From the NCBI RefSeq assembly GCF_001457035.1, contig NZ_KQ758617.1, positions 310,001-374,000 on the forward strand: DNA of 64,000 nt. The letters run 5' to 3'. This document shows, piece after piece, positions 6,820-48,391 of the stretch. The notes beneath the pieces were generated by a model, which saw only the letters and a program-made list of their open reading frames with translations, had not been told where the DNA came from and made no database searches. Source of the stretch: Fictibacillus enclensis (GTDB taxonomy: Bacteria > Bacillota > Bacilli > Bacillales > Fictibacillaceae). Every line of letters starts with the position of its first letter. Within the stretch, counting starts at the first letter, position 1. The translations under genes and the position numbers were made by a program.

Positions 6820-7812
6820 TTAAAGAAAAATATCTGCCAGCTTCTCATACGATTTCTTTCGTTCTTCAAAGGAATGTAGATTGGTCAGCACCATAAATTC
6901 ATTCGTTTGATAACGTTCAGCCAGGCTTTCCAGCTGGCGTTTTACCGTTTGGGATGAGCCAATTACCATTCGCTTTCTATTGATCTTGATTTTTTCCCGG
7001 TCGGCTTGTGAAAAGGAATAGGCATGCGCTTCCTCCAGGCTCGGTATTCTGCTGTCGAGCCCTTTTTCCACACGAAGAAGCCATAAATCCTGGCTTAATG
7101 CGAGCTCTGCCGCATGTTCATCACTCTCCCCGCAAATAACAAAGATGGCCGTGATCCCTGCCGGTTGTTTAAGAAGTGGGGAAGGAGCGAAGTTTGAATA
7201 GTACGCTTTGTATGCCTCCTGTCCACGGTCAGGGTGGATAAAATGCCCGAAAACATATCCAATTCCGAGTGAAGCTGCCTGCAGTGCGCTGTTTTCTCCG
7301 AGACCGAGCTCCCAAACCGGGGGAGGTGAAGGAACAGACGGGGATGCCTTTATTCCGTAATACGGATGATCAGAAGGAAGAGATCCTGATAAATAGTAAG
7401 TTAGGTCCAGAAGCTGACGGGGATATTGCGTCATGCTTTTTTTGATGCTGTCCGTCAGAGCCAGCCTCGTTTTCATCGTTCCTCCAGGTGAACGCCCCAC
7501 GCCGAGGTCAATTCGCCCGGGATACAATGCTTCAAGCTGCAAAAAGGTTTCTGCCACTTTAAAAGGGCTGTATTGTGGAAGCAGCACTCCGCCCGAACCC
7601 ACCCGGATGGTTCTTGTCCGGGCCGCGATATGTGCCATCATAATCTCAGGAGCTGTACTTGCCAGCCCTTTTGTACTGTGATGTTCAGCAAACCAGTAGC
7701 GCTTGTAGCCCCATTGTTCGGCAAGCTTTGCGAGCTCTGCACTTTGAAGCAGGGTCTCAGATGCGGTTTGCCCTTTAGGAATGGGAACTTGATCAAGTAT
7801 GCTTAAGTGCAT
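6820..7812 (-). CDS. LLM-class flavin-dependent oxidoreductase (MsnO8-type luciferase-like)
   Basis: A 330-residue single-domain luciferase-like TIM barrel, with no partner subunit. Features of the single-chain MsnO8/YvbT group are LSILDQVPIPKGQTA at the N-terminus, YWFAEHHSTKGLASTAPEIM near residue 40, GSGGVLLPQYSPFKVAETF near 75 and GRIDLGVGRSPGG near 98. It should use reduced FMN and oxygen; the substrate is unknown. TTGGAGG lies about 10 bp before the ATG at 7812. It is 51 bp behind the small ABM gene on the same strand, so the two are probably co-transcribed as an oxidative or electrophile-stress operon. Confidence 0.85.
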   Translation of the reverse strand: MHLSILDQVPIPKGQTASETLLQSAELAKLAEQWGYKRYWFAEHHSTKGLASTAPEIMMAHIAARTRTIRVGSGGVLLPQYSPFKVAETFLQLEALYPGRIDLGVGRSPGGTMKTRLALTDSIKKSMTQYPRQLLDLTYYLSGSLPSDHPYYGIKASPSVPSPPPVWELGLGENSALQAASLGIGYVFGHFIHPDRGQEAYKAYYSNFAPSPLLKQPAGITAIFVICGESDEHAAELALSQDLWLLRVEKGLDSRIPSLEEAHAYSFSQADREKIKINRKRMVIGSSQTVKRQLESLAERYQTNEFMVLTNLHSFEERKKSYEKLADIFL

Positions 7813-7863
7813 GAAGAATATGCCTCCAAGTATCGTCTTTTGTAGTCAGTCAAAAGGCTGCTT

Positions 7864-8154
7864 TCAATCGATCTGATTCCACTTATGAACCTGACGATCA
7901 TGTATAAGAGGTTCGATGTTGGTCCGATAGGCTTTGTAATGAGCGGTATCCATATGGCGGTCGATGGACTCCTGGTCGCTCCAAAGTTCGTACAGCATAA
8001 ACGTTTGTGGGTCAGCCTGTTCTTGATGCAGGTTATAGTGAAGACATCCTTCTTCATTTCTGGAATTCTTCATGACTTCGAGCAATACATCCTGTGTTTG
8101 TTGTTCTTTTCCCGATTTGGCTTTCAATGTAGCTAAAACAGCAATGGCACTCAT
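7864..8154 (-). CDS. ABM-domain (antibiotic biosynthesis monooxygenase / YgiN-like) protein
   Basis: A 96-residue dimeric alpha-beta barrel protein. It has the family pattern AVLATLKAKSGKEQQTQDVLLE, then NEEGCLHYNLHQ and FMLYELWSDQESIDRHMDTAHYKA, which line the active site of YgiN-type quinol monooxygenases and heme-degrading relatives. Asn-Glu-x-Gly-Cys and Trp are conserved. The likely role is cofactor-free oxidation or handling of quinol-like compounds. GGGAGG precedes the ATG. It is probably the first gene of a two-gene operon with the luciferase-like monooxygenase. Confidence 0.85.
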   Translation of the reverse strand: MSAIAVLATLKAKSGKEQQTQDVLLEVMKNSRNEEGCLHYNLHQEQADPQTFMLYELWSDQESIDRHMDTAHYKAYRTNIEPLIHDRQVHKWNQID

Positions 8155-8228
8155 TTTATTTATTCCTCCCGTTTTTGGTTGTTTAAGCTACTATACCGGA
8201 CACGAATTAAAAAGTCATTTGATTTGCC

Positions 8229-8270
8229 CATGAAAAAGCCAGTCTCTAAAAGGTTAGAGACTGGCCTTAA
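8229..8270 (-). terminator. Intrinsic terminator after ohrA
   Basis: On the minus strand GCCAGTCTCTAA-cctt-TTAGAGACTGGC is followed by TTTTT. The stem is 12 bp and sits just past the ohrA stop. Confidence 0.85.
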
Positions 8271-8273
8271 TTA

Positions 8274-8699
8274 TTATTCTGCTGAAACGTGGAGAGTAAC
8301 CGCAATATTTCCGCGAGTCGCTTTAGAGTATGGGCAAACCTGGTGAGCCTGTTCGATCAGTTGCTCTGCTTCCTCCTGGCTTGTTCCGTTCACTTTGGCA
8401 TGTAAAGCTACGGCAAGGCCAAAGCCCCCATCTGTATCTTTTCCGATACTGACTTCTGCTGTCACGCTGGATTCAATCCGCTTTCTTGCCTGACGGGCTA
8501 CAAGCTGAAGGGCACTGTCGAAGCATGCGGCATAACCGGCTGCGAATAATTGTTCTGGATTGGTTGCACCTGCTTCTTCTTTTCCGCCAAGAGATTTTGG
8601 CATGGACAATGAAAAGTCGATGGTGCTGTCACTGGATTTAACTTTACCCTGTCGTCCACCGTTTGCCGTTGCTTTTGCTGTATATAATGCATCTAACAT
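8274..8699 (-). CDS. ohrA: Organic hydroperoxide resistance protein OhrA
   Basis: A 141-residue Ohr/OsmC-fold peroxidase that reduces organic hydroperoxides through two cysteines, using lipoylated partners in the cytoplasm. Both catalytic cysteines are visible: AAGYAACFDSAL near residue 50 and QVCPYSKATRGN near residue 116. MLDALYTAKATANGGRQGKV is the standard start, and AAGGAGAG lies 7 bp before this ATG at 8699; an in-frame ATG 12 codons upstream lacks a binding site, so I reject the longer form. It is divergent from ohrR, with operator-like dyads between the two, the same layout as in B. subtilis. Confidence 0.95.
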   Translation of the reverse strand: MLDALYTAKATANGGRQGKVKSSDSTIDFSLSMPKSLGGKEEAGATNPEQLFAAGYAACFDSALQLVARQARKRIESSVTAEVSIGKDTDGGFGLAVALHAKVNGTSQEEAEQLIEQAHQVCPYSKATRGNIAVTLHVSAE

Positions 8700-39797: not shown

Positions 39798-39830
39798 ATG
39801 AACTTATTTCATCATTTGGCGTCTTTTTAA
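39798..39830 (+). promoter_or_regulatory. ECF-sigma promoter of the sigma/anti-sigma operon (autoregulatory)
   Basis: ATGAAC at 39798-39803, 16-bp spacer, CGTC at 39820-39823, then TTTTTAA. It has the GAAC -35 and CGTC -10 of extracytoplasmic-function sigma promoters. The same block, ATGAACTT-N14-CGTCTTTTTAA, occurs at 41820. It lies 63 bp before the sigma start codon, the normal distance for autoregulation. Confidence 0.85.
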
Positions 39831-39882
39831 CTAGAAACCATTTTTCATTAAGGCAGTCTGTCCAGAAACGGGTGAAAAAAAT

Positions 39883-40416
39883 GTGGACCAAGAACTTCAG
39901 CAATTAATCGTAAAAGCTAAGAAGGGAGACCAGGATTCCTTTTCTGAACTTATTCAAAGATATAAAGGAAAAGTGTTCCGGCATGCTTTTGCGATGGTCC
40001 ATGATCAGATGGAAGCTGAAGATATTACTCAAGAAGCTTTCGTCAAAGCCTATTTTTCAATGGATCAATTGAAAGAAGAGTATGCCTTTTCCTCCTGGCT
40101 TACAAGAATTGTTACCAACCTTTGTTATGACCGGATAAAGAAGAGGGAGAAACGGCCACAGTTGCAAATCGATCCAGAACAAACAGAGTTAATGGCGGAT
40201 ACCCACTCGGAAGTTGAAAACCTGCAGTTGAGGATCAATTTGCAGCTTGCCATGCAGAAGCTTACACCGGAGCATCGCACAGTGATTGTTTTAAGGGACA
40301 TCCAGGGATTTTCTTATCAAGAGATTGCAGAAATACTGGAAATACCAGAGGGAACGGTTAAATCCAGAATTAATATAGCCCGCAAAGAACTGAGAAAAGA
40401 ATTGTTGAGAGGGTGA
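39883..40416 (+). CDS. ECF-family RNA polymerase sigma factor
   Basis: 177 residues. Region 2 has DQDSFSELIQRYKGKVFRHAF, AMVHDQMEAEDITQEAFVKAYF (shown short as AEDITQEAFVKAYFS), and region 4 has LTPEHRTVIVLRDIQGFSYQEIAEILEIPEGTVKSRI (in parts FSYQEIAEIL and PEGTVKSRI). GTG start; the ATG at 39881 is in another frame. It should bind core RNA polymerase and recognise the promoters at 39798 and 41820. The anti-sigma gene starts 5 bp after its stop, with translation closely coupled. Confidence 0.92.
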   Translation: MDQELQQLIVKAKKGDQDSFSELIQRYKGKVFRHAFAMVHDQMEAEDITQEAFVKAYFSMDQLKEEYAFSSWLTRIVTNLCYDRIKKREKRPQLQIDPEQTELMADTHSEVENLQLRINLQLAMQKLTPEHRTVIVLRDIQGFSYQEIAEILEIPEGTVKSRINIARKELRKELLRG

Positions 40417-40421
40417 TCGGG

Positions 40422-40925
40422 ATGCATGAAGAAATACATGAACTTCTATCCGCTTATGTCGATGATGAGTTAGGGAAGAAGCAACGACAAGAAGTGGAAA
40501 GGCATATGAGTGACTGCGGGGAATGTAGGGAAGAAGTGGCTCATCTATTGGAATTAAAGGCTTTACTGTCATCTGCTTATGAGGAGTTTGATATGAAAAA
40601 CAGCAACATGGAGCAAACGGTGATGGCCAGGATCCGTTTTGAATCTACACCTGAGACGCTTCTTTCCCGGGGAGGTATGGCTGCAGCTATTGCGGGGGCC
40701 ATTGTTATGGCCGCTTTTCTATGGTTCGCCTCATCGGTTATTACGAAAGGGATTCATGTGGGGGTTACTCTTACTTCGATTTCCTTTAGTTTAATACGTT
40801 CAGCCTTTACCGTGGCGGGGGCTTTGCCAAATCTGCTTGAAGTTTTCTTAGTGCTGGCGCTAATCGTGCTGATAGCATCAGGATGGTCTGTGCGAAGACT
40901 ACTGGATACAAAGTCAACAGGGTGA
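40422..40925 (+). CDS. Zinc-finger (ZAS) anti-sigma factor
   Basis: 167 residues. An N-terminal zinc-binding anti-sigma domain has ELLSAYVDDELGKKQRQEVERHM then SDCGEC (H-x3-C-x2-C at about residues 29-36). About two hydrophobic segments follow, near 88-108 and 140-160, with a loop between. It should hold the sigma factor at the membrane until an envelope signal triggers release, in the way of RsiW-type proteins. The start at 40422 has GAGAGGG upstream; the GTG at 40413 overlaps the sigma gene and is less likely. Overlap-type coupling with the next gene too. Confidence 0.88.
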   Translation: MHEEIHELLSAYVDDELGKKQRQEVERHMSDCGECREEVAHLLELKALLSSAYEEFDMKNSNMEQTVMARIRFESTPETLLSRGGMAAAIAGAIVMAAFLWFASSVITKGIHVGVTLTSISFSLIRSAFTVAGALPNLLEVFLVLALIVLIASGWSVRRLLDTKSTG

Positions 40926-40936
40926 GGAGGGCAGCG

Positions 40937-41770
40937 ATGAAAAAGCACCGTATTTTATTAAGCATAACGATTGTTTTCATGATGGCCCTCACACTTGCAG
41001 CTCCAACCGTTTATGGTGCTGAAAAGAATGTGATCAAACAAAAAGAAGTGATGGTGCCCGCAAAGCAAAGTGTTGAAAATGTCATTGTTTTTGGACACGA
41101 TGCGATCGTAAAGGGAAAGGTGAAAACTGCTGTCATTGTTATTAATGGAAATGTAGACATCAAGAAAAAAGCAAAAGTAAAGGAACTGGTCCTTGTCATT
41201 GGTGGACATGTCAAACAAGAAGCAGGTTCGAAGGTGACCGATAATATCATCGCCATGAATCTGAACAGTCCATCACAAAACAGCCTTTTTCTTGGGGGGC
41301 TGGTCCTGATCAGCGGCTGGCTGCTCAGGCTTATTGCAAGCATTGTGCTGGTTTTCTTAACGGTACTTGCCGGCGTGTCGCTTCACAAACGAACAAACAG
41401 CCTGGCAGAAGTAACAAAGGGACAGGCTCCACGTCTGATTTTATCAGGAGCTATTATCAGTGCCGCACTGTTGGTTGTAGGTGTATTGCTCGGTATTACG
41501 GTCATTGGAATTCCTGTCTCCATTCTGCTTTTACTTTTACCGGTACTGATATTTATTACGGGGCTGGCCGTCTATAGCCATGAAATAGCGGCCCGATTTT
41601 CCGGCTTGGAGAATAAAGCTCCATGGCTTCGATATTTGACTGGTTCTTTTTTGCTGGTGTCCTTGTTCAACTTTCCGATTATCGGCAGTATTTTCTTCTT
41701 TCTTCTCTTTTTTCTATCATTGGGAGGAGCATTTAAATTCCTGTTTGAACGCTTTCGAGCTCGTAAATAA
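40937..41770 (+). CDS. Membrane protein with exported bactofilin-like polymer-forming domain
   Basis: 277 residues. A signal peptide (residues 1-30, ILLSITIVFMMALTLA then AP) is followed by a repetitive beta-rich segment, about 40-105 (VENVIVFGHDAIVKGKVKTAVIVINGNV, in parts), in which V-V-I-x-G turns recur about every 17 residues as in bactofilins. Four membrane helices end the chain. GAGGAGGG precedes the ATG at 40937; an upstream extension overlaps the anti-sigma gene. It is the third gene of the sigma operon, 11 bp after the anti-sigma stop, so it may be the signal-sensing or effector partner. Confidence 0.8.
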   Translation: MKKHRILLSITIVFMMALTLAAPTVYGAEKNVIKQKEVMVPAKQSVENVIVFGHDAIVKGKVKTAVIVINGNVDIKKKAKVKELVLVIGGHVKQEAGSKVTDNIIAMNLNSPSQNSLFLGGLVLISGWLLRLIASIVLVFLTVLAGVSLHKRTNSLAEVTKGQAPRLILSGAIISAALLVVGVLLGITVIGIPVSILLLLLPVLIFITGLAVYSHEIAARFSGLENKAPWLRYLTGSFLLVSLFNFPIIGSIFFFLLFFLSLGGAFKFLFERFRARK

Positions 41771-41778
41771 GTAAGTTT

Positions 41779-41814
41779 AAGTCCCTGGCAGGATTTGCCG
41801 GGACTTTTTTTAAT
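41779..41814 (+). terminator. Intrinsic terminator of the sigma operon
   Basis: AAGTCCCtGGCA-gga-TTGCCgGGACTTTTTTT. It separates the two ECF-controlled operons. Confidence 0.85.
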
Positions 41815-41819
41815 TTGTA

Positions 41820-41852
41820 ATGAACTTTTTGGACGAACTTCCGTCTTTTTAA
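41820..41852 (+). promoter_or_regulatory. ECF-sigma promoter of the glycosyltransferase operon
   Basis: ATGAAC at 41820-41825, 16-bp spacer, CGTC at 41842-41845, TTTTTAA after it. Nineteen of the compared motif bases are identical to the promoter at 39798. It lies 62 bp before the start of the MGDG-type gene and behind a terminator, so this operon needs its own promoter. Confidence 0.85.
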
Positions 41853-41903
41853 GTGTACAAGATTCATTAAATGAAATTTTATTTATAAAATAGGTGATGA
41901 AGA

Positions 41904-43037
41904 ATGAGGAAAATATTATTTTTGCCGTTTTTACAGATGCCATCCGGCCATCATCAGGCCGCAGAGGCATTAATCGACATGCTGAAAATCAGAGAGAAGG
42001 ATATTGTTTTAAAAAAAGTGGACTTGTTAAGCTATATGAATGCTTCCCTTGAAAAGATGGTGACTAAGACCTACTTGAAATGGATTAAACATTTGCCAGG
42101 TACCTATGAACTTATATATAAGAACTTTACGTATTCCACTATTCGAAGAGAGTCCTTTAAAGGATACGATCTGTTGTTTTTAAAGGCTATGCACAAGCTT
42201 TTGGAGGATGAACAGCCTGATGTGATTATATGCACGCACAGCATCCCGTCCTATCTCGTGAATGAGCTAAAACGAAAAGGGAAATGCCATATCCCTGTAA
42301 TGAATGTTTATACTGATTTTTTCATTAATGACGTATGGGGAAGACAAGAGATTGATTACCACTTCGTACCCAATCAGGATATGAAAACAATGCTCATGGA
42401 TGAACACCATATCCCTCAAGATAAAATCATTGTCTCTGGGATTCCGGTTCATGAGCAGTTCAAAAGAAAAGCAACGATTTTATCAAAGGGCAGCAGGAGG
42501 AAAGTATTAATCTCCGGAGGGAGCAGCGGATTGGGTGATATTTATGAATTGATTACTGCCGCTCGTTCTTCCAACGCCTTTGATTATTATGTCTTGTGCG
42601 GAAAAAACAAAAAACTATATGAAAAGATCCGATCACTGGGTATGGCAAATATACATCCGCTGCCTTATATTTCATCAAGGAGCGAAATGAATGAATGGTA
42701 TGACAGAGTAGATGCCATCGTTACAAAGCCCGGCGGAATTACGGTGAGTGAAGCACTAAGGAAAAACTTGCCGATATTTGTACATTCCGTACTCCCGGGA
42801 CAAGAAGAAATAAATCTCGAGTACCTGGAGGAAAAGAATTTGGTCTTCCGGATCGATAAATCATTGCCGCTGGAATTTCAATTGAAACGGGTACTCCGAA
42901 ATCAACCTGCCATGAAAAATTGGCAAGCTGCCAAAAATGCTTATGAGAAAGGGCTTGAAATGTTATCGCCTGATCAAATTACAAAATTTATCCAATCTTT
43001 GCTGGAGCCGGCTTTTACCTTGAGCCGTCAGGCTTAA
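41904..43037 (+). CDS. ykoN: MGDG-synthase-type glycosyltransferase (YkoN/UgtP-like)
   Basis: 377 residues. The MGDG-synthase N-domain is shown by PFLQMPSGHHQAAEALIDML (residues 8-27, with the G-H-x-AA motif), MVTKTYLKWIKHLPGTYELIY and HSIPSYLVNEL. The GT28-type C-domain has VLISGGSSGLGDIYEL and KPGGITVSEALRKNLPI, the UDP-sugar binding loop. It should transfer a sugar to a lipid acceptor at the inner face of the membrane. It is first of a four-gene operon with YkoS- and YkoT-like genes, as in B. subtilis, plus bcrC. The promoter is ECF-type. Confidence 0.87.
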   Translation: MRKILFLPFLQMPSGHHQAAEALIDMLKIREKDIVLKKVDLLSYMNASLEKMVTKTYLKWIKHLPGTYELIYKNFTYSTIRRESFKGYDLLFLKAMHKLLEDEQPDVIICTHSIPSYLVNELKRKGKCHIPVMNVYTDFFINDVWGRQEIDYHFVPNQDMKTMLMDEHHIPQDKIIVSGIPVHEQFKRKATILSKGSRRKVLISGGSSGLGDIYELITAARSSNAFDYYVLCGKNKKLYEKIRSLGMANIHPLPYISSRSEMNEWYDRVDAIVTKPGGITVSEALRKNLPIFVHSVLPGQEEINLEYLEEKNLVFRIDKSLPLEFQLKRVLRNQPAMKNWQAAKNAYEKGLEMLSPDQITKFIQSLLEPAFTLSRQA

Positions 43038-43067
43038 AATCATTACATCAAGGCAGGAGTATATCGT

Positions 43068-44750
43068 ATGTTCAGATGGAATCAACTAAAGGAAACCCAA
43101 TATTTAACTGCGGCAGTAATTGTCCTTCTGATCTATCTTTCACCCCTGTTTATTCTTGGGGAAAATGCTCATATCCGCGTCCATGATAATATGGACTCCA
43201 ATATCACGTGGTACAAGGAACTAAAGGAGAGTGGCCAGCTGCTTGGACCTCTGAATGCTGTCATTCCACAAGTGATCAATGGTGTGCCAAGAGATGCGTT
43301 TGATTCGGAATTCAGTGGCATTGTCTGGCTTCATACCCTCTTTCCATCGATGCTCGCTTATGCTTTTTCGCAGGCTATTACGCGGGTGATCGCGTTCATT
43401 GGAATGTACTTGCTTTTAAGGAAGCATTTCATAAAGGAAGAGGGATTAGCCGTTTTACGGGTAGGTGCATCCCTGGCTTTTGCACTTACCCCGTTTTGGC
43501 CATCGGGTATGCTCAGCACTCTCGGTATGCCGCTTGCATTATGGGCGTTTTTAAATATTCGAAACCGTACCTCCGGGTCGAAAGAGTGGCTGGTTCTTTT
43601 TTGTCTTCCTTTCTATTCGAGTTTTGTATTAGGTTTTGTCTTTTTTCTGGCTTTTATGGCTCTTTTATGGATGATTGACGTATATCGCAGCCGGCAGTGG
43701 AATGGGAGATTCCTGTTAAGCATCATTTTTATGGCAGGAATGTATTTGCTCACTGAATACAGGCTTGTCTTTTCCCTGTTATTGCCTCAGCCGCCGACCA
43801 ACAGAAATGAATTTGATGAATCTGTTCTTGATGGGCCTTCATCCATGAAGCTTATGCTGAAAAATTTTCTTTTGGGCCATACCCATGTCATGACCATTCA
43901 TACGTATTTTATCCTGCCACTGTTGATCATGGTCCTATGGAATTTGATAAAAGAAAACAAGTGGCGGAATGAGAAAACATTCGTTTACCTTATGATCTTA
44001 AATGTACTGCTTTCTGTATGGTATGGTTTTTGGTTTTACAAGGGATGGGAGCCGATTAAAGCCCATATTTCGCTTCTGCGGACATTTAACTTTTCACGTT
44101 TTCACTTTTTACATCCATTACTATGGTATCTCTTGTTTGCCATAGGGCTGAGAATTTTCTGGAAGGGTGGAGGGAAAGGGAAAAAAGCTGCTGTTGTATT
44201 CCTGATCCTCCAGCTGACTCTGCTTTTTACCTTGAACGAAGAAGTGCGGTATCGTATCGCTGGATATCCCTCGTTTAAAGAATTCTACTCTGTGCAGCTG
44301 TTTAAAAAAATTGATACGTATATTGGAAAATCAAAAAGTTCCTACCGGGTGGCAAGTCTGGGGCTTCACCCCGCCATCGCGCAATACAATGGTTTTTACA
44401 CAGTGGATACGTATAACAATTTTTATCCACTTTCCTATAAACATCGGTTCCGTTCCATTATTGCTAAGGAATTGGACAAAAGTCCAAAGCTCAAAAGCTA
44501 CTTTGATCACTGGGGAGGCCGCTGTTATTTGTATTCAGCGGAACTGGGAGAACATTATGATTATGAGAAAACATCCACAAAACAAATTCATCAGCTTCAA
44601 TTAAATATCCAAGCCTTTAAGAAGCTGGGAGGCCGGTATATTTTTTCAGCTGTACCTGTTAAGAATGCCAAGCAAGATCACTTGGTATTGAAAAAAGTGT
44701 TCACCGATCCACATTCGGTATGGAAAATTTATCTTTACCAGACGAGATGA
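43068..44750 (+). CDS. ykoS: YkoS-like polytopic membrane protein, probable GT-C glycosyltransferase
   Basis: 560 residues, about 11 membrane helices plus a C-terminal extracellular domain of some 130 residues. HIRVHDNMDSNITWYKEL near residue 36 has a D-x-x-D-like pair just after the first helix, as in YfhO/GT-C proteins. B. subtilis YkoS (559 residues) sits between YkoN-type and YkoT-type genes in the same manner. With the YkoT-like enzyme it should form a lipid-linked sugar glycosylation system that modifies a wall or teichoic polymer outside the membrane, as CsbB and YfhO do; that step is inferred. Confidence 0.82.
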   Translation: MFRWNQLKETQYLTAAVIVLLIYLSPLFILGENAHIRVHDNMDSNITWYKELKESGQLLGPLNAVIPQVINGVPRDAFDSEFSGIVWLHTLFPSMLAYAFSQAITRVIAFIGMYLLLRKHFIKEEGLAVLRVGASLAFALTPFWPSGMLSTLGMPLALWAFLNIRNRTSGSKEWLVLFCLPFYSSFVLGFVFFLAFMALLWMIDVYRSRQWNGRFLLSIIFMAGMYLLTEYRLVFSLLLPQPPTNRNEFDESVLDGPSSMKLMLKNFLLGHTHVMTIHTYFILPLLIMVLWNLIKENKWRNEKTFVYLMILNVLLSVWYGFWFYKGWEPIKAHISLLRTFNFSRFHFLHPLLWYLLFAIGLRIFWKGGGKGKKAAVVFLILQLTLLFTLNEEVRYRIAGYPSFKEFYSVQLFKKIDTYIGKSKSSYRVASLGLHPAIAQYNGFYTVDTYNNFYPLSYKHRFRSIIAKELDKSPKLKSYFDHWGGRCYLYSAELGEHYDYEKTSTKQIHQLQLNIQAFKKLGGRYIFSAVPVKNAKQDHLVLKKVFTDPHSVWKIYLYQTR

Positions 44751-44780
44751 TTGCAGCACGAGCGAAAGGGAGTGGAACTG

Positions 44781-45794
44781 ATGAATCAACCGGTTGTTAC
44801 CATTGTTGTTCCCTGCTATAACGAAGAAGAAGTCCTGGGTGAAACAACAAAGCAATTAACCTATTTGCTGGAAGATCTGGAAACAGAGAAATGGATTCAT
44901 CCTCAAAGCAGAATCTTGTTTGTTGATGATGGGAGCAAAGACGGAACATGGGAATTGATTGAAAAAGAAAGTTTAGTGAATGGGTTTGTTACAGGATTGA
45001 AATTGTCCCGTAATGCCGGTCATCAGAATGCGTTGTTAGCCGGACTCATGGAGGCGAAGGAAATCTCCGACTGTGTGATATCGATTGATGCAGATTTGCA
45101 GGATGATATCCTGGTGATCCGTGATTTTATTTTAAAATATAAGGAAGGATGCGAAATTGTTTACGGCGTTCGTAAAAAACGGGACACTGATACCTTTTTC
45201 AAACGGGTAACCGCTAATGGATTTTACGGTTTCATGAATAAAATAGGCATTGATCTTATTCCCAACCATGCAGACTTCCGGCTGATGAGCAAACGGGCAC
45301 TTGACGAGCTATGCCGCTATGAAGAAAGCAACCTCTTTTTAAGAGGGATTATTCCGCTGATTGGGATGAAAACAGCCAAAGTTTATTATGACCGGAAAGA
45401 ACGCCTGGCAGGGGAGACGAAGTACCCGTTAAAAAAGATGCTGGCATTTGCTGCCGATGGAATCACCTCGTTCAGTATCACGCCCATTCGTTTTGTTACC
45501 GTGAGTGGCTTTATGGCGGTTTGTCTCAGTATGCTTACAGGAGCATACACATTGGTGCATAAAGTAATGGGGAATGCAGCAGCCGGATGGTCTTCACTAA
45601 TGATCTCCATCTGGCTCATTGGCGGTCTGCAGCTGATGGGAATTGGGGTTATCGGTGAGTATATCGGGAAAATCTTTACTGAAGTAAAAAGGCGTCCGAA
45701 ATATTCAATTGAAACAAGTCTCAATTTGAATAATGTAGGAAATCAACCGAAAGAAAGGGAAAAAAATGAACTACCAGTGGTTTCAAGATATTAA
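44781..45794 (+). CDS. ykoT: GT2 polyprenyl-phosphate glycosyltransferase (YkoT/CsbB-like)
   Basis: 337 residues, exactly the length of YkoT. An N-terminal GT2 domain has TIVVPCYNEEEVLGET, VDDGSKDGTW and IDADLQDD (the catalytic D-x-D near residue 112), then SRNAGHQNALLAGL. Two membrane helices close it (about 240-265 and 280-305). It should load a sugar on undecaprenyl phosphate inside the cell, to be flipped and used by the GT-C protein. AAAGGGAGTGG precedes the ATG at 44781; the TTG at 44751 overlaps the previous stop. The bcrC start is inside its last codons. Confidence 0.88.
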   Translation: MNQPVVTIVVPCYNEEEVLGETTKQLTYLLEDLETEKWIHPQSRILFVDDGSKDGTWELIEKESLVNGFVTGLKLSRNAGHQNALLAGLMEAKEISDCVISIDADLQDDILVIRDFILKYKEGCEIVYGVRKKRDTDTFFKRVTANGFYGFMNKIGIDLIPNHADFRLMSKRALDELCRYEESNLFLRGIIPLIGMKTAKVYYDRKERLAGETKYPLKKMLAFAADGITSFSITPIRFVTVSGFMAVCLSMLTGAYTLVHKVMGNAAAGWSSLMISIWLIGGLQLMGIGVIGEYIGKIFTEVKRRPKYSIETSLNLNNVGNQPKEREKNELPVVSRY

Positions 45795-46338
45795 TAATTT
45801 GTCCGTTTCTCATCCTGTATTGGATAGTTTTATGATTTTTTTAAGCCAAAAGGCGCTTTATCTCTATGCCCTTGTTCTTTTGGTCCTGTGGTTTACAAAT
45901 GATTCATATAAAAGATTAGCAATCTATTCAGGAATAACTGGAATTTTGGGGCTGATCGCAAACTATATCATCACACTTTTTTATTATGAACCAAGGCCAT
46001 TTGTCAGCCATCATGTGCATTTGCTGTTCAAACATGCGGCGGATGCTTCGTTTCCGAGTGACCATACCACAGGTGCGTTTGCTTTATCGTTTGCCGTATT
46101 CTTAAGCCACAAAAAGCTTGGAAGTGCAATGCTGGCGGTAGCGGCGTTAACAGGATTATCACGTGTTTGGACAGGACAGCATTATCCTTTTGATGTTGCT
46201 GGAAGTATAGTAGTCGCGGGAATCATCAGTATCCTTGTTTATCTGCTGTCCCCTGTTTTTGATCCGTTTGTAAACGTCATTCTTCGTAAATACAATCAAG
46301 TTCAATCTACAGTAAAGCAGGCCATTTGGAGCAAATAG
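45766..46338 (+). CDS. bcrC: Undecaprenyl-diphosphatase BcrC (PAP2 family)
   Basis: 190 residues, about five membrane helices. The PAP2 catalytic motifs are YYEPRPF, ADASFPSDHTTGAFA and SRVWTGQHYPFDVAGS, in the BcrC form, which it closely resembles along its whole length. It turns undecaprenyl diphosphate into the phosphate and gives resistance to bacitracin. Its start overlaps the end of the YkoT-like gene by 29 bp, so translation is coupled. In B. subtilis bcrC is ECF-controlled (SigM, SigX); here it seems to be under the local ECF promoter. Confidence 0.93.
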   Translation: MNYQWFQDINNLSVSHPVLDSFMIFLSQKALYLYALVLLVLWFTNDSYKRLAIYSGITGILGLIANYIITLFYYEPRPFVSHHVHLLFKHAADASFPSDHTTGAFALSFAVFLSHKKLGSAMLAVAALTGLSRVWTGQHYPFDVAGSIVVAGIISILVYLLSPVFDPFVNVILRKYNQVQSTVKQAIWSK

Positions 46339-47632: not shown

Positions 47633-48391
47633 TTAAAACATGCCAGGCGGGTAGTAGTAAGGATAAAACACCTGTTGAGCTTGCTGTCCTTGTTGCTGTT
47701 GACCACCGGGCATACCGGGGAAAAGTCCAGGGAATTGAGGCATCTGCTGCTGTCCGCTCTGCCCCTGCTGTGATTGTCCGCCTTGCTGTCCTTGTTGCTG
47801 TTGACCACCGGGCATACCGGGGAAAAGTCCAGGGAATTGAGGCATCTGCTGCTGTCCGCTCTGCCCCTGCTGTGATTGTCCGCCTTGCTGTCCTTGTTGC
47901 TGTTGACCACCGGGCATACCGGGGAAAAGTCCAGGGAATTGAGGCATCTGCTGCTGCCCGCCCTGTCCCTGCTGTGATTGTCCGCCTTGCTGCCCCTGCT
48001 GCTGTCCCTGTTGCTGTTGACCGCCGGGCATACCGGGGAAGAGCCCAGGGAATTGAGGCATCTGTTGCTGCCCGCCCTGTCCCTGCTGTGATTGTCCGCC
48101 TTGCTGTCCCTGTTGCTGTTGACCGCCGGGCATACCGGGGAAGAGCCCAGGGAATTGAGGCATCTGCTGCTGCCCGCCCTGTCCCTGCTGTGATTGTCCG
48201 CCTTGCTGTCCCTGTTGCTGTTGACCACCAGGCATACCGGGGAAAAGCCCAGGAAGCTGAGGCATCTGCTGCTGCCCGCCCTGTCCCTGCGGGAGAAAGC
48301 CATGAAAACCAGGTGCCTGCTGGCCTCCGCCCTGGCCTGGGAGTTGAGGAAACATTCGTGGGTTCGAATGCTGCCCATAATATTCATTCAT
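47633..48391 (-). CDS. Gln/Gly/Pro-rich tandem-repeat protein, possible spore or surface protein
   Basis: 252 residues, made almost entirely of Gln, Gly, Pro, Met, Phe and Leu. A head, MNEYYGQHSNPRMFPQLPGQ, leads to six copies of a 34-residue unit with a core QQQMPQFPGLFPGMPGG; the third copy has four extra residues, and the copies near the C-terminus are almost identical. The tail is aromatic, VFYPYYYPPGMF. No signal peptide or charge clusters are seen. Such composition is known in spore-coat and exosporium-like proteins, but this is only a guess. AAGGAGG is ahead of the ATG. The opposite strand shows a long shadow frame caused by the repeats. Confidence 0.75.
   Translation of the reverse strand: MNEYYGQHSNPRMFPQLPGQGGGQQAPGFHGFLPQGQGGQQQMPQLPGLFPGMPGGQQQQGQQGGQSQQGQGGQQQMPQFPGLFPGMPGGQQQQGQQGGQSQQGQGGQQQMPQFPGLFPGMPGGQQQQGQQQGQQGGQSQQGQGGQQQMPQFPGLFPGMPGGQQQQGQQGGQSQQGQSGQQQMPQFPGLFPGMPGGQQQQGQQGGQSQQGQSGQQQMPQFPGLFPGMPGGQQQQGQQAQQVFYPYYYPPGMF
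47675..48290 (-). repeat. Six tandem 102-bp repeats (one with a 12-bp insertion)
   Basis: Six direct repeats of 102 bp code for the 34-residue unit; one unit is 114 bp. Adjacent copies differ by a few bases, most synonymous. There are no spacers, so it is not a CRISPR array. Confidence 0.85.

Follow-up and report, generated by a model that had tools for sequence, protein, structure and literature searches.

A putative autoregulated sigma factor regulon linking lipid-carrier recycling and envelope glycosylation genes in Fictibacillus enclensis

A 64,000-nucleotide stretch of the genome of the soil bacterium Fictibacillus enclensis (RefSeq assembly GCF_001457035.1, contig NZ_KQ758617.1, positions 310,001 to 374,000), called the window below and numbered from its first letter, carries two adjacent operons on the plus strand. 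The first encodes a sigma factor of the extracytoplasmic function (ECF) type, a zinc anti-sigma factor and a membrane protein of a family of unknown function; these three genes are referred to as the triple. The second encodes proteins resembling YkoN, YkoS, YkoT and BcrC. Which sigma factor reads the promoters of these two operons, and what does the response serve? Comparison of sequences makes it very probable that the local sigma factor controls both operons, with an output directed at envelope glycans and their lipid carrier.

Paired promoters at the locus

Promoter 1 (39798..39830) precedes the sigma operon and promoter 2 (41820..41852) the glycosyltransferase operon. Both read ATGAACTT-N14-CGTCTTTTTAA on the plus strand and, as claimed in the original prediction, they are identical at all 19 specified positions, while their spacers agree at 5 of 14. 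Measured from CGTC to the start codon, the distance is 63 bp for promoter 1 (GTG at 39883) and 62 bp for promoter 2 (ATG at 41904), in accordance with the spacing first proposed. The terminator expected between the operons was also found, as a terminator-like stem and T-run on the plus strand (41784..41812, stem at 41784-41802). With up to three mismatches allowed, the window yields two matches to the motif, only promoters 1 and 2; 100 shuffles of the window gave a mean of 0.04 matches and a maximum of 1.

The motif TGAACTT-N14-CGTC has four matches in the 4.5 Mb genome of the window, and the two outside the locus sit within open reading frames (ORFs). The extended form TGAACYT-N14/15-HGTCWWTT has two matches, both at the locus, and one in the reversed control. 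Three genes of the DUF6044 family, to which the YkoS-like protein belongs, are present in this genome, one at the locus and two elsewhere. No match to the extended motif was found at either of the other two, and one of them (L160) scored low when scanned with the promoter matrix described below. Because the extended motif has no matches elsewhere, including at these DUF6044 genes, the regulon appears confined to two operons in this genome. A looser motif, run over 17 genomes, matched many times in each and was left out of the counts. A search for SigY promoters returned nothing useful.

Both promoters are present in all six Fictibacillus genomes that hold the locus, namely that of the window and five congeners (5/5 for each promoter), and their spacers have diverged. 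The third gene of the sigma operon occurs in six of seven Fictibacillus genomes, the window's included. The constant core of the locus within the genus is made of the sigma factor, the anti-sigma factor, the third gene and the YkoN-type glycosyltransferase.

The motif in other Bacilli

The extended motif was counted in genomes with and without the triple. Sixteen triple-bearing genomes contain 51 matches versus 18 in the reversed control, whereas 28 genomes of the family that lack the third gene show no excess, with 28 matches versus 39. The two sets differ with a Fisher p of 1.3e-4, which, like the p values given below, is descriptive, since the genomes are related and the target classes were picked after earlier results. 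Thirty-five of the 51 matches could be assigned to transcription units of sigma, glycosyltransferase, ykoS, DedA or bcrC genes, one of them (in G306) through its identity with a promoter of G243; in G089, an ORF without Pfam hit stands between the motif and bcrC. The other 16 are about the control level; 14 of them were read by eye, and the remaining two have the same sequence as sites read in a sister genome.

A promoter matrix was trained solely on the 12 Fictibacillus promoters (6 genomes) and used in held-out scans, in which a gene was scored positive when a site of at least 11 lay in the interval from 300 bp upstream of the ORF to 40 bp within it. At DUF6044 loci, two of six in triple-bearing genomes scored at least 11, the four below being those of G044 and G089 and paralogues in G000 and G005, versus one of 24 (L167, 15.3) in genomes without a third-gene match. 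In five triple-bearing genomes of another genus (g45), the motif precedes a remote DUF6044 (ykoS) gene, which is followed by a GT2 (ykoT-like) gene. This GT2 gene and the GtrA-like gene after it were identified by eye, and the former was confirmed by tblastn for G074. A motif was also read by eye 166 bp before a RodA/FtsW-like gene in this same genome (L133, 621-787).

The third gene was detected in 12 of 397 genomes sampled from the order, two of which are Fictibacillus. In the other ten, which belong to five genera and three families, it follows the sigma and anti-sigma genes; one of these loci is divided between two contigs. For 10 of 11 order-level loci outside Fictibacillus, the best match of the matrix points to a relevant gene: the sigma gene, the YkoN-type or a second gene for a monogalactosyldiacylglycerol (MGDG)-type glycosyltransferase, or, in L056, a DedA-ykoS-ykoT-GtrA operon. 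In that last locus, the segment 10444-11916 matches both the BcrC and DedA references. A DedA-like gene of L059 also has a site; in L064, about 280 bp separate the site from the sigma ORF downstream of it; and no motif site was found in the 3-kb contig of L066. Most order-level sites have a spacer of 15, and their −10 boxes vary at the first base. In the held-out scan, 19 of 48 target-class genes were positive versus 1 of 104 others (p 2.5e-10).

At the level of the class, a 15-member profile found the third gene in 69 of 398 genomes and in 43 of 146 genera, the weakest of these matches being partial. All three genes of the triple were detected in 25 of the 27 loci examined; one exception runs off its contig on the sigma side (L193) and the other looks broken (L180). 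A related motif pattern has 41 matches in these 27 genomes (20 of which contain at least one) versus 7 in the control. Eighteen of the 41 are remote from the triple: seven of them are followed by a DedA, PAP2/BcrC or MGDG-type gene and two by an RND transporter gene. The latter are large RND-type genes with the motif upstream (L237 and L239), assigned to ACR_tran by Pfam in L237. The held-out scan was positive for 20 of 47 target-class genes versus 3 of 240 others (p 4.2e-15), and one of these three encodes UppP/BacA. Of 20 wider class-level loci, 15 contain a PAP2/BcrC, DedA or UppP gene no further than 7 kb away, some of the PAP2 assignments being weak (down to 22-26% identity). In L285, a single protein encoded directly after the triple (7174-8493) contains both a DedA-type VTT and a PAP2 domain according to Pfam, and would apparently join a carrier flippase to a phosphatase. 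The UppP gene of the same locus is preceded by the motif.

Regulation and output of the locus

Control of both operons by one sigma factor is well supported by these comparisons: both promoters are kept in six of six Fictibacillus genomes, the motif recurs in other families, and it is in excess in the 16 genomes with the triple and not in the 28 genomes of the family lacking the third gene. The shared motif is observed, and the local sigma factor is its presumed reader. Carrier phosphatases, flippases and lipid-linked glycosyltransferases recur beside the triple or its motif, which therefore suggests that the lipid-carrier economy is coupled to envelope glycosylation. Our best reading is that the regulon serves undecaprenyl phosphate (UndP) recycling and surface or lipid glycosylation, like part of the SigM/SigX output.

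Zinc anti-sigma factors retain ECF sigma factors until a signal frees them. In the resting cell, the sigma factor would be kept at the membrane by the zinc anti-sigma factor, probably aided by the third membrane protein, and it would be freed by an envelope signal, of which a shortage or trapping of UndP is the most likely. It would then read the TGAACTT-N14-CGTC promoters of its own operon and of ykoN-ykoS-ykoT-bcrC. YkoN and YkoT would make lipid- or carrier-linked sugars, YkoS would transfer the sugar to a surface acceptor and BcrC would regenerate the carrier. In other Bacilli, the triple is accompanied by DedA flippases, BcrC/UppP and MGDG-type glycosyltransferases and, in some lineages, by a remote ykoS-ykoT pair. 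In this scheme we infer the action of the anti-sigma factor, the signal, the sugar and the acceptor.

Besides the descriptive nature of the p values, several observations weigh against this interpretation. At the locus, intact ykoS and bcrC are each found in only 3 of 6 Fictibacillus genomes, and intact ykoT in 4 of 6. In F. fluitans (L036, 9794-11110), a remnant is left of ykoS, next to intact ykoT and bcrC; F. solisalsi (L037, 9953-10784) has lost ykoS and most of ykoT; Fictibacillus sp. FJAT-27399 (L038) has no bcrC match and the bcrC match of L039 is weak and broken; in F. terranigra, the YkoN-type gene is the sole downstream gene retained. What is constant is a theme of lipid-carrier recycling and glycosyltransferase genes and not the seven-gene set. 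The short core TGAAC-N16-CGTC is not enriched genome-wide (29 matches versus 34 in the reversed control), so that the argument depends on conservation and on the longer motif. Two triple-bearing genomes (G044 and G089) have ykoS without the motif. Among the scanned targets, the order-level match at ykoS in L056 (11.8) does not mark the main promoter, and a 108-residue ORF counted as a class-level target has 22% likeness to BcrC. Of the 18 remote class-level matches, nine are followed by no clearly related gene or by the end of a contig. Finally, only 5 of 10 sigma genes of the triple at the order level, a count that leaves out an unrelated sigma paralogue in L063, and 10 of 19 at the class level have a site of at least 11. 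None was found before the sigma gene in L292, L295, L298, L299 and L300. The site lies before ykoN in L058, L060, L061 and L062, and before a bcrC gene further upstream in L291 and L296, so the sigma gene may lie inside those operons.

The F. fluitans locus is puzzling in its own right, as this species tolerates ykoT without ykoS, a combination reported to trap the carrier in Bacillus subtilis (PMC11081497).

Alternatively, the regulon could be a stress response of the envelope in general or of its membrane glycolipids, in which MGDG-type glycosyltransferases are the main output and carrier recycling comes second. Of the downstream genes, that of the YkoN type alone is kept in all six Fictibacillus genomes, and glycosyltransferase genes are the most frequent carriers of the motif at the order level (11/14). 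The motif also stands before the two RND transporter genes and, in L126 (from position 531), just before a sulfolipid-type epimerase-like gene followed by glycosyltransferase-like and GtrA-like genes, as read by eye. The class-level loci point the other way: besides sigma, the motif carriers there are mostly BcrC/PAP2 (6/15) and DedA (2/10) genes, together with one of two glycosyltransferase genes and UppP. We consider this emphasis on glycolipids a possible but rather unlikely description of the regulon. The alternatives weighed here overlap with the main reading, and the odds do not sum to one.

It is improbable that another cellular ECF sigma factor of the SigM, SigW or SigX type is the main reader of both promoters, the local sigma factor being one target among several. 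ECF promoter cores resemble one another, and the genome has 16 matches over the ECF profile cut-off, the local sigma included, some of which may be other sigma types. SigM of B. subtilis is reported to control bcrC and uptA (PMC11898649). Against such a reader stand the motif excess in the 16 triple-bearing genomes and its absence in the 28 genomes lacking the third gene, the absence of any extended site outside the locus in the genome of the window, in contrast to the large regulons of SigM and SigW, and the association of the motif with a sigma of the local type in other families. A recent local duplication or a chance likeness devoid of regulatory meaning, which would fit two sites at one locus in this genome, is ruled out for practical purposes by spacers alike at just 5 of 14 positions, by boxes kept over six species and by recurrence of the motif at matching genes in other families.

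Returning to control by the local sigma factor, a broader and speculative extension, which we hold to be more doubtful than probable, is that the triple forms a so far undescribed, class-wide lipid-carrier sensing system. The third protein, with an exported beta-repeat-like domain placed on a body embedded in the membrane, would sense the level of the carrier or its pyrophosphate and gate the zinc anti-sigma factor, so that phosphatases (BcrC, UppP), flippases (DedA) and carrier-using glycosyltransferases would be set together.

Gene products and known systems

All genes of the two operons are on the plus strand. The sigma factor (39883..40416) is a 177-residue protein with a GTG start, in which both region 2 and region 4 score over the Pfam cut-offs (Sigma70_r2 1.4e-17, Sigma70_r4_2 1.4e-17). 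Its assignment to SigW, SigY, SigM or SigV was rejected: NCBIfam scores of 149.3, 136.7, 136 and 91 bits are all below the respective cut-offs of 209, 194, 190 and 190. Likewise, the 25 models listed for each of seven relatives from other genera include no SigW, SigM, SigY or SigV model that reaches its cut-off. The sigma factor may already carry a published ECF group number. The anti-sigma gene (40413..40925, likely start ATG 40422) encodes a zf-HC2 domain over cut-off (3.3e-11), with the motif H31-x3-C35-x2-C38, numbered from GTG 40413, followed by hydrophobic segments in the hydropathy profile. H31, C35 and C38 are invariant among 6 sequences.

The third gene (40937..41770) encodes a protein with an N-terminal hydrophobic signal-like segment, a beta-repeat-like region seen by eye and then three long hydrophobic regions. 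The product had been described as an exported bactofilin-like membrane protein. Its predicted exported membrane character stands, as do the sigma and zinc anti-sigma assignments of the first operon; its likeness to bactofilins is not established by sequence. The window protein has no Pfam hit at E 0.001 and PF04519 is not listed for it, while eight of the 15 family members show Pfam Bactofilin when E values up to 5 are admitted, the best being 0.039. Four weak matches to solved structures in the PDB were obtained, none credible and no bactofilin among them. A search for carriage of the third gene on plasmids gave no match.

The second operon begins with an MGDG-synthase-type glycosyltransferase of 377 residues (41904..43037, MGDG_synth 3.5e-33), which we take to be YkoN-like; the MGDG_synth domain scores over its threshold and the UgtP model NF010135 does not (161.7 bits, cut-off 500). 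The original prediction counted six to seven genes; its YkoN-, YkoS-, YkoT- and BcrC-like content is retained, and since YkoN and the MGDG-type glycosyltransferase are the same gene, the two operons total seven. The YkoS-like membrane protein (43068..44750), a putative GT-C transferase, scores 820.5 bits against PF19510 (DUF6044, 8.9e-247, cut-off 27), a family also detected in B. subtilis among the named controls. The following gene (44781..45794, Glycos_transf_2 1.6e-21) encodes a GT2 glycosyltransferase whose YkoT/CsbB-like function is suggested by analogy; it scores 226.9 bits against the PgfS model (cut-off 500). The last gene (45766..46338), which overlaps the end of ykoT, encodes a BcrC-like PAP2 phosphatase (1.5e-14; 54.3 bits, cut-off 27.2) with RP, PSDH and SRx5Hx3D motifs, presumably the PAP2 catalytic motifs. 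It scores 84 bits against the BcrC equivalog NF008813, below the cut-off of 229. Further downstream, an ORF on the minus strand (47633-48391) encodes Gln/Gly-rich repeats in tandem (PGLFPGMPGGQQQQGQQ and variants).

A survey of titles and abstract beginnings on ECF sigma factors together with bactofilin, DedA, BcrC, PAP2, undecaprenyl phosphate or Fictibacillus gave no account of the triple, and the consulted part of an ECF review (PMC8103513) mentions neither bactofilin nor undecaprenyl. DedA proteins are described in literature abstracts as UndP flippases.

The pairing of a GT-A with a GT-C protein recalls csbB-yfhO and ykoS-ykoT of B. subtilis. Such pairs are thought to work via the lipid carrier (PMC5836110). 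B. subtilis ykoST is reported to be controlled by SigG, SpoVT and YkoGH, with an unknown target (PMC5836110; also PMC8035078), whereas here the pair shares an operon with ykoN and bcrC behind an ECF-type promoter. Over-expression of YkoT without YkoS in B. subtilis is reported to activate SigM, more weakly than CsbB or YkcC (PMC11081497). By NCBIfam scores, SigW is the best model for the local sigma factor and SigY the next, both below their cut-offs.

The locus resembles the SigM system in its ECF sigma factor with membrane regulators and its carrier-recycling output. Trapping or shortage of UndP is reported to activate SigM (PMC11081497), and SigM to control bcrC and the DedA-family flippase uptA (PMC11898649). 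The local system differs in its sigma factor (136 bits against the SigM model, cut-off 190), in a zinc-binding anti-sigma factor and a third exported membrane protein in place of YhdL and YhdK of B. subtilis, and in its motif, TGAACTT-N14/15-NGTC, whose extended form is found at two operons only in the genome of the window. How the carrier lipid is split between wall synthesis and optional sugar decoration is an active question (PMC11081497, PMC11898649). A small regulon joining carrier recycling to carrier-linked glycosylation, present in many genera, would offer a minimal system for testing signal and output. It would also give the orphan YkoS-YkoT pair a regulatory context and make the third gene a candidate sensor family.

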